A stretch of 64,000 nucleotides of DNA from Bacteroidales bacterium (GTDB taxonomy: Bacteria > Planctomycetota > Planctomycetia > Gemmatales > Gemmataceae). Numbering within the stretch: the stretch's first letter is position 1; every line of letters starts with the position of its first letter. The notes under the pieces were generated by a model. The model made no database searches. It worked only from the letters and a program-made list of their open reading frames with translations, and had not been told where the DNA came from. Location of the stretch: contig JAIXLE010000059.1 in the NCBI GenBank assembly GCA_026931725.1, forward strand, positions 62,001 through 126,000, given 5' to 3'. A program made the position numbers and the translations under genes. Shown one piece after another: positions 7,997 through 13,469 of this stretch.

Positions 7997-9508
7997 TTAG
8001 CGTGCCTGCGACCAGTCTTTCCGTTGGCGAGAGGAAGGGATTTTCAGCGCTTCGCGGTACTTCGTCACGGTGCGGCGGGCAATGGTCAGACCCGCTTGCT
8101 TGAAGCGTTCGACAATGTCCTCATCCGAGAACGGATGGGCTTTATCCTCGCTGCTGATGATTTCGAGGAGCTTTTGTTTGATCGTTTCCCAGGCGACGTT
8201 CTCGCCGGTCTGTTCGTTCTTGGTGCCGCCGCCGAAGAACCGTTTCAGGGGGAACACGCCGCGCGGGGTCTGCACCCACTTATCATCGACGGCCCGGCTC
8301 ACCGTGGTCACATGCACGCCGACTTGTTTGGCGATCTCTTCCATCTTCAACGGTTGAATGTAATCCGGCCCCAGATCGAGGAACGCCCGCTGGTGCAGGA
8401 TGATAGACCGCGTCACCTTGATGAGCGTGTTCCGCCGCTGTTCGATCGCGTCGATGAGCCAATGAGCGGAAGTGAATTTCTGCTTCAGGAAATCACGGGT
8501 CTTCGGGTCGTAGCTCTTGTCCTTGGCCAGATCGACGTACCGCTTGCTGATGCGGACGGGCGGTGTCCAATCGTCGGTTAGACGAATGTCAAAATCATCG
8601 GAATCCGTGCGTTCGACAATGATGTCCGGGACGACGTACTGATTGTTCTGTGGAACGAATCGGGTGCCGGGCTTCGGGTCGAACCGGCGGAGTTCCTCAA
8701 TCGCTTCCTGAATCGTCGGAATGTCGGCGTGGGTCTTGCGTTGAATGATCGGGAGTCGGTTGTGGGCGATGTCTTCGAGGTGGTCCCGGATCAGGGTTCG
8801 CACGAGGTCTTTGTGAGCGGTGTCGTCGGTCACCTGGAGGAGCAGACACTCTTTTGTATCGCGCGCTCCCACCCCGGCAGGGTCCAGCGATTGCACGACA
8901 ATGAGTGCGGCTTCGATGTCTTCAACAATCACCGGGCCTTGGGGGAAGTTGGCCGCGAGTTCCTGAAGCGTGATCGGGATGAGGCGATTGCGGTCGCGGT
9001 CATGGCCGAGCAGGTAGCCGTTATCGTCCAGGTGGCTGATGAGATACGCGCACAGTTCCCACTCCTCGGGGGTGAGGTCCATGTAGGCGAGTTGCTCGGT
9101 CAGGTGGTCCTGCAAGGAGATTGGCGCACTGGCGACATTCTGCATCGCGTCAAGTTTCTTATCGGAAAGCTCGGCCAGGCTGTGACGGCTGGGGCGATGG
9201 TCTTCGTTGAAGTGGTCTTCCCAGTCGCGGTTGAGTTCTTCGAGGCGGTGGAATTCCAGGTCGCCGGAGTCATCGTGCTTCAAAGGGGCATCGGGGTTAA
9301 ACTCTTCGGTAGAGGCCGTTTCCGAGGATTTGGCACGGGCTTCCTGAATTTCGAGGAAGGGGTTTTCCTGCAATTCGGCCTGAATCTTCTCTTGCAGGGC
9401 CATGACCGGGAGTTGCAGGATTTCCATGGACTGAATCATGCGGGGTGCCAGGAACTGCTTGAGTTCCGGCCGCATTGACAAGTCCATGCCGAGTCGCATT
9501 CCGCTCAT
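7997..9508 (-). CDS. rpoN: RNA polymerase sigma-54 factor
   Basis: 503 residues. Region I is the Gln/Leu-rich N-terminus (LKQFLAPRMIQSMEILQLPV), which contacts bacterial enhancer-binding activators. Residues about 50-130 are an acidic region II. The core-binding and helix-turn-helix domain follows, and the C-terminal RpoN box reads ARRTVTKYRE, matching the invariant ARRTVAKYRE pattern that recognises the -24 element. The ATG at 9508 has GGAGGG 7 nt upstream. It is the last gene of a leftward cluster dnaX-ybaB-recR-rpoN with 39 bp after recR. No activator is encoded in the window. Confidence 0.97.
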   Translation of the reverse strand: MSGMRLGMDLSMRPELKQFLAPRMIQSMEILQLPVMALQEKIQAELQENPFLEIQEARAKSSETASTEEFNPDAPLKHDDSGDLEFHRLEELNRDWEDHFNEDHRPSRHSLAELSDKKLDAMQNVASAPISLQDHLTEQLAYMDLTPEEWELCAYLISHLDDNGYLLGHDRDRNRLIPITLQELAANFPQGPVIVEDIEAALIVVQSLDPAGVGARDTKECLLLQVTDDTAHKDLVRTLIRDHLEDIAHNRLPIIQRKTHADIPTIQEAIEELRRFDPKPGTRFVPQNNQYVVPDIIVERTDSDDFDIRLTDDWTPPVRISKRYVDLAKDKSYDPKTRDFLKQKFTSAHWLIDAIEQRRNTLIKVTRSIILHQRAFLDLGPDYIQPLKMEEIAKQVGVHVTTVSRAVDDKWVQTPRGVFPLKRFFGGGTKNEQTGENVAWETIKQKLLEIISSEDKAHPFSDEDIVERFKQAGLTIARRTVTKYREALKIPSSRQRKDWSQAR

Positions 9509-9547
9509 TGTGGTCCCTCCGTCTTGGCGAACCCGCCTTCCCGCGGC

Positions 9548-10147
9548 TCAAAGTTCTCGACGGCCCGCCAGGGCATCGGCAAGAATCTGGGCGTTGGCCA
9601 GTTCGAGAGAGCCCCCGGCGGGGAGCCCTCGGGCCAGCTTCGTGATGCTGACCCCGGTTCCAGCGAGCAGGTTTCCGGCGAGTAACGCCGTCCCGTCGCC
9701 TTCCAGAGTGGGGCTGGTGGCGAGAATGACCTCGCGGACACCGCCCCGATGCACCCGCCGTACCAACGGGTTGAGGGTTAATTGATCCGGCCCAACCCCT
9801 TCGAGCGGGGCGAGTCGGCCACCGAGGACGTGATACAAACCGCGATAGTTTCCCGCACGTTCAAACAAAGTCACATCACGCGGTGTTTCGACGACGCAGA
9901 TTTGCCCGGCATCACGCCGCGAGTCTGCACAGATGCCGCAGAGTTCACTGGCCGTCAAGTTGAAGCATTCCCGGCACGGGCGAATCTGTTCGACCACACA
10001 CCGCAACGCTTCCGCGAGTTCCACTGCCACTTTGCGATCGCCGCTAATGAGGAAGTGGGCGATCCGCTCCGCGCTTTTCGGCCCGATTCCGGGCAATTGC
10101 GTCAGGGTTTCTAACAGACGTTCGATTGGTCCGTTGGCTTCACCCAC
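9548..10147 (-). CDS. recR: Recombination mediator protein RecR
   Basis: 199 residues, normal family length. An N-terminal helix-hairpin-helix (LTQLPGIGPKSAERIAHFLI) is followed by a four-Cys zinc finger (CRECFNLTASELCGICADSRRD) and a Toprim domain (ICVVETPRD...). The C-terminal Walker-B-like segment LARGLPAGGSLE is characteristic. RecR works with RecO/RecF to load RecA on gapped DNA. The start is GTG at 10147 with AAGGAA upstream, 16 bp after ybaB. The dnaX-ybaB-recR order is conserved across many bacteria. Confidence 0.97.
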   Translation of the reverse strand: MGEANGPIERLLETLTQLPGIGPKSAERIAHFLISGDRKVAVELAEALRCVVEQIRPCRECFNLTASELCGICADSRRDAGQICVVETPRDVTLFERAGNYRGLYHVLGGRLAPLEGVGPDQLTLNPLVRRVHRGGVREVILATSPTLEGDGTALLAGNLLAGTGVSITKLARGLPAGGSLELANAQILADALAGRREL

Positions 10148-10163
10148 GGTACGTTCCTTGCGG

Positions 10164-10511
10164 TTAGCCGCCCATTCCGGGGAGGAGGTTGCCCATCATC
10201 CCCGCGGGCAGTCCGAGGTTTTCGGCCATCTTCGCCGACTCCGCGGCTAGCAGTTCGCGGACTTTGGCCATCGCCTGATTGGTTGCCCCGACAATCAAAT
10301 CTTCGACCATCTCCCGATCGGCGGCGGCTTCCTCGCTGATGCGGCACGCGATCATTTCGAGGTGGCCGTTCACTTTCACCGTCACCATCCCGGCCCCGGC
10401 GGTGCCTTCGGCGACGATCTGGGCGATTTTCTGTTGAAACTGGGCCATTTCCGCCTGAATCTTGCCCTTGTTGTTCATCAGGCTCATCAGGGAACCAAGT
10501 TCCTTGAACAT
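10164..10511 (-). CDS. ybaB: YbaB/EbfC family nucleoid-associated protein
   Basis: 115 residues from the ATG at 10511, with a strong AGGAGAGAGG Shine-Dalgarno overlapping the end of dnaX. An N-terminal amphipathic helix (KIQAEMAQFQQKIAQ) is followed by the YbaB core, with VTVKVNGHLEM as the beta hairpin and the conserved DREMVEDLIVGATNQAM helix. The C-terminus is Met/Gly-rich (GMMGNLLPGMGG). Family members bind DNA as tweezer-like dimers. It sits 10 bp downstream of dnaX, the classical context. The frame stays open upstream to 10760, but that part overlaps dnaX and has no family similarity. Confidence 0.95.
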   Translation of the reverse strand: MFKELGSLMSLMNNKGKIQAEMAQFQQKIAQIVAEGTAGAGMVTVKVNGHLEMIACRISEEAAADREMVEDLIVGATNQAMAKVRELLAAESAKMAENLGLPAGMMGNLLPGMGG

Positions 10512-10521
10512 GACCTCTCTC

Positions 10522-12369
10522 CTAATCCCGATCGGAATCAGATTCTGGGGCCGGCGCGTCATCCTCGTCGGAATCCGCATCGGAATTCGACCAGGTGGCC
10601 GAGCTGGTTGTGGGGTCGAACCCCTCATCGACTCGCCACTCGTTCGCGGGGTCGAGTCCAAATGCCTCAGCCGCTTTTTTGAGCAGCCCCAGTTCCGCTG
10701 GACGACGGCGGGGCGGGAGGGCCGCCACAACCGCCGCTTCGAGGCGATCCAGCACCACACGGACTTGCCATTCCGTGCCGGTCACTTTTTTGACCGTGGT
10801 GCGAATCACACCGAGACTCGCTTCGCTGGAGCAGGCATCGTATGCTGCACTATACCGGGGAGAAAAGCGAATTTCTAGAGCATTTGGCCCAATAATTGCA
10901 GGGTTTTCGGCTTGACGGAGCTGATTTCCTCGCATCGGCCCAACGGCTTGCAAGATGCGCTCCCAGACGACGGCCAGGGTGTCGGTTGTCAGTGCCATCG
11001 GCTGAGTCACGGCGGGCGGTGCGACCGTTTCGGACCCGGCAACTTCGGGAGTCTGAGCTTGAGGCGTGGCCTTATGGCTCAGAGTTCCGTTTTTTTTTAA
11101 GGATTCGGGCGTTTCCGGTGCCGAAGACAGCCTGGGAACTGGGCGAGATGGGCCGGGCGGTGCCGTTCTTGTGGGCGTGATGGGGGTGCCCGCTGCCACG
11201 GATGTTAGCAGCTCCCCGACGGCGAGGAGTTCACTGAGCCGCGTCAGCCGCACGATTGCCACTTCTGCTAGCACTTGGATGTGAGAGCTGTTGCGCATCC
11301 GGGCTTTCGCGGTCGTCAGCACATCCAATCCTGCCAGTACGGCATCCAGTTCCACATGGGTCGCATGAGCGGACATTTTTTCCCGGTCACCCGGTAAATT
11401 GGACAATTCCACCGCTTCGGGGCCAGCCACTTGTAACAACATCAAGCCACGCCAATAGTCGATGAGTTGGTCGATCAGTTCGCCGAGTTGGTAGCCGCGG
11501 TCGGCCGCTTGGCCCACGAGTCGGACGGCTTCGGCCCCGTTGCGTTCCAGAATCGCGGTGGCCAGAGAGTCGATCCACTCCTCGCCAGCCGTGCCGAGCA
11601 GGGCATGAACCGCTTCGGCGGTCAGTTGGGATGCCGTGGCTCCAAGGAGTTGATCGAGCAGGGTTTGCGCATCCCGCATTGAGCCGCCCGCCCGTTTCGC
11701 CACGATGCGGAGGGCGGCATCTTCGGCGGCGAGTCCTTCCTTGCGGACGATGTGTTGCAGCGTCTCGAACACTTTTTGTGGGCCGATGTGGGCGAAGTCG
11801 AACCGCTGACAGCGGGACAGAATCGTGATGGGGATTTTTTGCGCTTCGGTCGTGGCGAAGATGAATTTGACGTGGGGCGGCGGCTCTTCCAGCGTCTTCA
11901 ACAGGGCGTTGAACGCGGAGTTGGAGAGCATATGCACTTCGTCAATGATGTAGATCTTGAACCGGGCGCGTTGCGGTCGGAAACCGACGTTTTGCCGCAG
12001 TTCACGGATGTTGTCGACCCCGGTGTTGCTGGCCGCGTCGATTTCGACCACATCGACATCTTCCCCGGCGGCGATGGCTTGGCACGAGTCGCACTGGTCG
12101 CAGGGAGTCGTGGTGGGGCCGCGCGTGCAGTTGAGCGCCTTGGCCAGAATCCGGGCGGTGGACGTTTTCCCCACCCCGCGTGCCCCGGTGAACAGGTACG
12201 CATGAGCGATTCGCCCGCTGGCTAGCGCGTTGGTCAGTGCCCCGGCCACATGTTCCTGGCCGATCAGGTCAGAAAATTGCTGCGGCCGATACCGCCGGGC
12301 CACGACGGTATAACCTGTGGATGGAGAAGGAGTTACGGTTGCGGGGGCTGGCGGTTTGGTTTTGGCCAT
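10522..12369 (-). CDS. dnaX: DNA polymerase III gamma/tau subunit
   Basis: 615-residue clamp-loader ATPase. Residues 24-60 lead into Walker A GARGVGKTST. A zinc module with four Cys (NC...CDQCDSC) follows, then Walker B IIDEVHMLS, the SRC motif LSRCQRF and sensor 2 GSMRDAQTL. After the AAA+ and collar domains (to about residue 390) there is a Pro/Thr-rich linker and a C-terminal tau-specific domain. Codons 424-427 read TTA AAA AAA AAC, a nine-A run with near stops in both other frames, so a gamma form of about 432 residues is predicted (see the separate entry). The protein starts at 12369 with MAKTKPPAP. The TAG stop precedes ybaB. Confidence 0.97.
   Translation of the reverse strand: MAKTKPPAPATVTPSPSTGYTVVARRYRPQQFSDLIGQEHVAGALTNALASGRIAHAYLFTGARGVGKTSTARILAKALNCTRGPTTTPCDQCDSCQAIAAGEDVDVVEIDAASNTGVDNIRELRQNVGFRPQRARFKIYIIDEVHMLSNSAFNALLKTLEEPPPHVKFIFATTEAQKIPITILSRCQRFDFAHIGPQKVFETLQHIVRKEGLAAEDAALRIVAKRAGGSMRDAQTLLDQLLGATASQLTAEAVHALLGTAGEEWIDSLATAILERNGAEAVRLVGQAADRGYQLGELIDQLIDYWRGLMLLQVAGPEAVELSNLPGDREKMSAHATHVELDAVLAGLDVLTTAKARMRNSSHIQVLAEVAIVRLTRLSELLAVGELLTSVAAGTPITPTRTAPPGPSRPVPRLSSAPETPESLKKNGTLSHKATPQAQTPEVAGSETVAPPAVTQPMALTTDTLAVVWERILQAVGPMRGNQLRQAENPAIIGPNALEIRFSPRYSAAYDACSSEASLGVIRTTVKKVTGTEWQVRVVLDRLEAAVVAALPPRRRPAELGLLKKAAEAFGLDPANEWRVDEGFDPTTSSATWSNSDADSDEDDAPAPESDSDRD
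11052..11098 (-). promoter_or_regulatory. Programmed slippage/frameshift site in dnaX
   Basis: On the coding strand a run of nine A (11098 to 11090) follows TT and precedes C, so the zero frame reads TTA AAA AAA AAC and contains the heptamer A AAA AAC. Shifting by -1 (or gaining one A in the mRNA) gives five further residues and then TAA at 11074-11072, a 432-residue product. Shifting by +1 (or losing one A) gives TGA at 11081-11079, a 429-residue product. Six nt after the run, TCTGAGC (11083-11077) pairs perfectly with GCTCAGA (11058-11052). An inner AGGC-CAC-GCCT hairpin lies in the loop. dnaX of E. coli uses -1 frameshifting and that of Thermus uses slippage on nine A to make gamma. Confidence 0.8.
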
Positions 12370-12566
12370 CGCGGGAAAATCCTGATACGCGGCACAGTGA
12401 TCTTTTCGGATGCTATCCGATTTCCCTCGTGTTGGCGATGCCCGCTTTGATGGAGAGCTGATCCCCTGAAGGCACGCATCCTGACCGAGAAACGGTCAAA
12501 CCCTCTTTGGCGGAACGGTTTCGCTCGGAAGCATGAGCCTGTCGCGGTTCCGTTTGCGGAACTGGG

Positions 12567-13469
12567 TTATTGCGGTTCCGGGGCGGCGGGCAGAAAACGC
12601 ATTTGGCGGAGCCACTTCAGCGATTGCGTTTGCCAGACATCCCACATCGGCCCTTTGTACCCGTTCAAGCCGTGCCCCCCGGATGGCAGTTTCTGATACT
12701 CCACGGGAATCTTGTGGGCGGTCAGGGCCGCCGCGAATGCCTGGCTGTTCTCCGGGATGACGACTTTATCATCGGCGGCGTGCGTCAGGAATGCTGGTGG
12801 TGTCTGGTTCGTCACCTGTTGTTCGTTCGAGAACAGTTTTATGAGCTTTTCATCGGGTTGCTGACCGAGCAAATTGAGCCGAGATCCGCCGTGCCCGATT
12901 TGGCTCATCGAGATGACGGGGTACACCAGAATCTGGAAATCCGGGCGGCAACTCATCCGTTCCACCGGGTCTGTGGCCTGCGGGTGGCCGGTGTCGAAGT
13001 GTGTCCCGGCTGTGGAGGCCAGATGCCCCCCTGCCGAGAATCCGATGATGCCCACTTTCGCTGGGTCGATGTCCCAATCGCGGGCATGAGCCCGTACCGT
13101 GCGGAGAGCCCGTTGCGCATCCAGCAAAGGGACCATGTGCCGGCCACGCGGTAGCCGATATTCCAGCACCACGCCGGTGATGCCGTGTCGGTTCAGCCAC
13201 GCCGCGATGCCGTGCCCCTCGGCTCCGGTTACCAGCCGTCCGTAGCCGCCACCCGGACAGATGACGATGGCCGTGCCGTTGGGCTTCTCCGGGCGGTGGA
13301 CGGTGATGAACACATCGACTTTCTCAAAAGTGCCATCACCTTGGGGAGCCTGCCCATTCCAGAGGTTCCACCGCACGGGCTGATTTTTCGCGGAGTCGTT
13401 CGCTGGGGAACCGCTCGCCGCAATGGATGTCCACACGGCTGCCAACAGGAACAAACGATGTGTTTGCAT
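12567..13469 (-). CDS. Secreted alpha/beta hydrolase (BD-FAE/acetyl-esterase type)
   Basis: 300 residues from the ATG at 13469 (MQTHRLFLLAAVWTSIAASG), with a signal peptide of about 22 residues. The oxyanion region is VICPGGGYGRLV. The nucleophile elbow is GFSAGGHLAS, with catalytic Asp in THAADDKVV and His in LPSGGHGLNGY. This pattern matches the esterases annotated in planctomycetes and Bacteroidetes as xylanase-associated or polysaccharide deacetylating enzymes. The exact substrate is unknown. The frame extends upstream without a sensible N-terminus. It is divergent from the thiolase gene across 297 bp. Confidence 0.85.
   Translation of the reverse strand: MQTHRLFLLAAVWTSIAASGSPANDSAKNQPVRWNLWNGQAPQGDGTFEKVDVFITVHRPEKPNGTAIVICPGGGYGRLVTGAEGHGIAAWLNRHGITGVVLEYRLPRGRHMVPLLDAQRALRTVRAHARDWDIDPAKVGIIGFSAGGHLASTAGTHFDTGHPQATDPVERMSCRPDFQILVYPVISMSQIGHGGSRLNLLGQQPDEKLIKLFSNEQQVTNQTPPAFLTHAADDKVVIPENSQAFAAALTAHKIPVEYQKLPSGGHGLNGYKGPMWDVWQTQSLKWLRQMRFLPAAPEPQ

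Follow-up and report, generated by a model that had tools for sequence, protein, structure and literature searches.

In Escherichia coli, dnaX carries a -1 frameshift site, the heptamer A AAA AAG, together with an upstream Shine-Dalgarno sequence and a conserved stem. The dnaX gene of Thermus thermophilus is described as containing nine consecutive As with near stops in both alternative frames, where about half of the product becomes gamma by transcriptional slippage (PMC1088944; PMC5009743). Slippage in a cellular replication gene has been documented experimentally in Thermus dnaX. Slippage has also been predicted for two-ORF dnaX genes with poly-A, which occur in Chlorobi and other groups (PMC3711429). 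Our literature search found no report of dnaX slippage in planctomycetes, though one may exist elsewhere.

The dnaX gene considered here lies within a 64,000-nucleotide stretch of DNA from a member of the Gemmataceae, referred to below as the window. Its full-length tau frame (10522..12369, minus strand), assigned from the open frame, Pfam matches and homologues, comprises 615 codons and, as the DNA stands, stays open through a run of nine As (11090..11098, minus strand; sequence and class comparison). The run is read in frame as TTA AAA AAA AAC, and a first-pass annotation of the window had described it base-exactly. Pfam identifies the clamp-loader ATPase, the lid and gamma/tau domain III at residues 38-388, and the predicted cut, at about residue 426, falls directly C-terminal of these matches, in agreement with the earlier placement of the site just after the AAA+/collar domains. 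Homologues of dnaX were found in 93 of 95 genomes of the family. Because the window genome holds a single dnaX and one distant homologue (33% identity), which is taken to be the delta-prime subunit, no separate gamma gene is seen. By eye, dnaX is followed on its 3' side by ybaB, recR and an rpoN-like gene (window positions 7997-10511, minus strand); dnaX-ybaB-recR is the usual gene order.

Both alternative frames close shortly after the run. The first +1-frame stop is a TGA at +8 nt (11079..11081, minus strand) and the first -1-frame stop a TAA at +15 nt (11072..11074, minus strand), each assigned from the sequence and from the enrichment of such stops across the class. Ten As in the mRNA, or a -1 shift by the ribosome, would lead to the TAA and to a predicted gamma of 432 aa (46.4 kDa computed; tail ...KKKRNSEP with one A added). 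An mRNA with 8 or 11 As would lead to the TGA and to a predicted gamma of 429 aa (46.0 kDa computed; tail ...KKTEL with one A removed). Tau itself, at 615 aa, has a computed mass of 65.8 kDa. The first-pass annotation had named the same two stops (TAA at 11074-11072, TGA at 11081-11079) and the same three product lengths, all of them correctly.

The window gene thus combines at least nine As between the ATPase/collar and tau parts, tau in frame and close stops in both other frames, which are the features of the Thermus type. The A9 run is very probably a programmed transcriptional-slippage site of the kind found in T. thermophilus dnaX. RNA polymerase would realign on the nine As, and the A-run of its mRNAs would come out longer or shorter. 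Tau would be specified wherever the transcript carries 9 or 9+3n As, and every other run length would bring the ribosome to a -1 or +1 stop within about 15 nt, yielding a gamma of 429-432 aa that ends in a short novel tail. Polymerase slippage and the accumulation of gamma, in whatever ratio to tau, are inferences.

Considered within a single genome or gene, the run already exceeds chance: at least nine As occur at just 10 places in the 5.4-Mb genome (both strands), and when synonymous codons of the window dnaX were resampled, 6% of trials placed such a run in the linker. Comparison between genes gives much stronger evidence than either figure. It covers 150 dnaX genes of the family Gemmataceae, its order and the class Planctomycetia, of which 147 have a readable linker; L087, L123 and L158, whose linkers are truncated, do not enter the linker counts. 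A run of A9-A11 lies at the same place in 116 of the 147 genes, representing 68 of 89 genera (A9 in 73 genes, A10 in 42 and A11 in one), against 9.6 genes expected when synonymous codons are resampled with each gene's own usage. The AAA+/collar part of these genes, 162 kb in all, contains no run of at least nine As. The conserved runs occupy all three codon phases and encode VKKN, EKKK, KKKV and other residues, so that it is the bases that are kept and not a peptide. These comparisons indicate that the A-run is under nucleotide-level selection.

The off-frame stops are conserved as well. In 94 of the 116 genes with A9-A11, the -1 and the +1 frame each reach a stop within 30 nt; with the sample reduced to one gene per genus, this holds for 56 of 68. 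Stops within 30 nt are present in the -1 frame of 92% of these genes, compared with 20% at control positions, and in the +1 frame of 103 of 116 (89%), compared with 31% at control positions; in the remaining 13 genes the +1 stop lies more than 30 nt away. The first stop lies at a median distance of 12 nt for the -1 frame, compared with 93 nt at control positions, and of 8 nt for the +1 frame, compared with 58 nt. The run and the near stops are present in the nearest relatives, L003 and L004, as well as in most of the class, and together they lend good support to the earlier prediction of separate gamma and tau subunits. Since a -1 ribosomal shift yields no +1-frame protein, selection for a stop in that frame is a sign of mRNAs whose length has changed.

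It could be argued that the run and stops are incidental features of a lysine-rich linker under low constraint, with tau as the only product or with gamma made by proteolysis, as is known in Caulobacter (PMC5009743). The 22 of 147 relatives that have no run at all would fit such an explanation, which is nevertheless very unlikely because a functionless linker accounts neither for the excess of runs over expectation nor for the enrichment of stops in both off-frames. What the run-less genes do show is that the run is not indispensable: it is missing from scattered genera and from all seven sampled dnaX genes of a sister family, f2 (L110-L116). No convincing candidate for a replacement -1 site was found in the run-less genes, those of the sister family included.

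Outside the class, the A-run is sporadic, occurring in 5 of about 38 dnaX genes sampled from the rest of the phylum and in single genes of other phyla, for example in Fibrobacter (L269) and Pseudohongiella (L283). In dnaX of these two genera, of a Bacteroidetes bacterium and of Phycisphaerae (L269, L283, L293, L223 and L231), A9-A10 is followed by close stops in both off-frames, and the Thermus-type design therefore recurs across phyla.

The main alternative to polymerase slippage is that gamma arises, as in E. coli, by -1 ribosomal frameshifting on A AAA AAA aided by a downstream stem, either alone or together with slippage. Several features of the window gene agree with this mechanism. The slippery heptamer A AAA AAA is in phase within the A9, with the -1 stop at +15 nt, and TCTGAGC (11083-11077; 5' arm, 11077..11083, minus strand) pairs perfectly with GCTCAGA (11058-11052; 3' arm, 11052..11058, minus strand) to form a 7-bp stem that starts 6 nt past the run. 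The stem is a less secure feature than the run. It has a folding energy of -18.6 kcal/mol and a z of -4.4 in a 45-nt piece selected post hoc; in a fixed 50-nt piece, the z of -2.9 is the lowest among A9/A10 genes, yet unremarkable as one value in 116. However, the nearest relatives, L003 and L004, keep the run and the stops and lack the window stem (the alignment of this region counts these two genes, with L005 and L009 set aside). Over the 50 nt downstream of the run in all 116 genes, the median folding energy is -12.7 kcal/mol, compared with -12.9 kcal/mol in controls, with a median z of -0.02. A downstream stem is thereby ruled out as a conserved element of the A9-A11 genes, and the stem in the window is probably incidental. 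Moreover, because it would form only after the run has been transcribed, we would expect it to be of no help to polymerase slippage.

Pairing with the anti-Shine-Dalgarno sequence upstream of the window run is weak (-3.3 kcal/mol); no Shine-Dalgarno-like stimulator was found there, and the A9-A11 set lies near control in this respect. Upstream folding beats control in raw energy with a z of about 0, and was dismissed as an effect of composition. A search of positions 10000-12700 against Rfam returned no frameshift element and, up to E = 10, two unrelated matches at chance level. One Gemmata-group genome (L018) has, just past the A9 of the dnaX linker, a hairpin of about 20 bp with nearly perfect pairing, possibly a palindromic repeat that has inserted there.

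The ribosomal mechanism also leaves the close +1 stop of the window gene unexplained, a stop that is selected class-wide. With the +1 frame stopped as tightly as the -1 frame and downstream folding at control level, slippage is favoured, and ribosomal frameshifting as the source of gamma, with or without slippage, is unlikely. Ribosomes shifting -1 on A AAA AAA could still contribute a small share on the same run. The first-pass annotation had allowed for ribosomal frameshifting, slippage or both; the slippage signature is borne out by the comparisons, and a stem-stimulated combination is not. Likewise, the perfect 7-bp pairing at 6 nt that it described exists in the window, probably without the stimulatory role ascribed to it. 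Aligning related planctomycete dnaX genes, as it had suggested, revealed conservation of the A-run and stops with no stem kept alongside, and its picture of a hybrid between a Thermus-like run and an E. coli-like stem-loop finds no support among the relatives.

Ribosomal frameshifting does seem to operate elsewhere in the family. Six Gemmataceae genes (L081, L082, L084, L085, L086 and L088, from genera g25 and g35) carry an A7 in phase for A AAA AAA, followed at about 4-6 nt by a two-part stem of approximately -28 to -35 kcal/mol. Their -1 stop lies at 20-29 nt and their +1 stop at 31-100 nt. In the dnaX tree, a fast one with many open forks that gives no exact count of losses, these six genes group together as a single supported clade, and the genes of its sister group carry A9; L049, a seventh gene with A7, sits elsewhere in the tree and has no stem of comparable strength. 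Of the 116 A9-A11 genes, 103 meet a +1 stop within 30 nt, whereas none of the seven A7 genes does (Fisher p 1e-6, in genes that are not independent). Upstream Shine-Dalgarno pairing is stronger among the A7 genes, a small set. Compared with dinucleotide shuffles, the five distinct sequences of the clade have fold z values of about -3 (three sequences), -2.4 (one) and -0.55 (L088). No covariation within the stem was demonstrable in these five sequences, which show a register shift in the inner helix and are too few to count; support for the stem comes from its conservation and the strength of the fold. Taken together, these observations suggest, with moderate strength, that one Gemmataceae clade has exchanged slippage for ribosomal frameshifting of the E. 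coli kind. That relatives seem to use this mechanism speaks for it in the window gene too, and the lack of a close +1 stop in all seven A7 genes speaks against it, since the window gene has one. A dual signal in the window species, in which A9 slippage is joined by a newly arisen stem for -1 frameshifting, is improbable; if true, it would represent a living intermediate of the switch that the A7 clade with strong stems has seemingly completed.

In two other genes, L092 (A8) and L083 (A10), the tau-specific part lies in the -1 frame after the run. These may be homopolymer assembly errors or genes whose tau needs slippage, as in the two-ORF type. Such displaced C-terminal parts are also what would be expected if the run were a DNA-level contingency site at which replication slippage toggles tau between cells. 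This possibility is extremely unlikely, however, because every other gene with a detected C-terminal part has it in frame at any run length, because the two exceptions may be assembly errors and because losing tau should carry a cost.

Polymerase slippage may not be confined to dnaX in the window genome. An IS3-type element has A9 at the end of orfA, and its three copies, on three contigs, are identical at the run (L170 279-1401, L172 and L173). The integrase frame is +1 relative to orfA, and an orfA-integrase fusion would consequently need slippage, being unreachable by a -1 shift. This A9 is a hint of slippage in the same genome. Slippage in insertion elements is described as known (PMC1088944), and a +1 case is reported in the IS3 family (PMC6211511). 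A further A10 was observed on the minus strand of another contig (L174 1501-1510), inside an open frame of 514 codons without a Pfam match; it is possibly another slippage site or part of a broken gene.

The Thermus-type slippage design of dnaX was already known, and the window gene, judged by its sequence, fits it. What seems to be new is that the design is conserved class-wide, that stops in both off-frames can be used to test the mechanism, and that one clade looks to have switched. Class-wide conservation in Planctomycetia would show an old and selected route to gamma, implying that gamma matters in these bacteria. The A7 clade, with its strong stem and without the +1 stop that would now be needless, would constitute a natural experiment on the replacement of one recoding mechanism by another.

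Among the described systems, T. thermophilus dnaX is the one that the window gene resembles in having an in-frame run of nine As on the sense strand, tau made without a shift and both other frames stopped nearby. It differs in belonging to another phylum and in that slippage was measured in Thermus, whereas it is inferred for the window gene. The two-ORF dnaX genes share poly-A of 7-10 and predicted slippage with the window gene; in those genes, however, tau requires the shift, while here it is in frame (PMC3711429). With E. coli dnaX, the window gene has in common a predicted gamma from a shift about two-thirds along the gene, a close -1 stop and a stem, but its run is longer, its +1 frame is also stopped and its stem is unconserved. 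The A7 clade of Gemmataceae is closer to E. coli dnaX than the window gene is.
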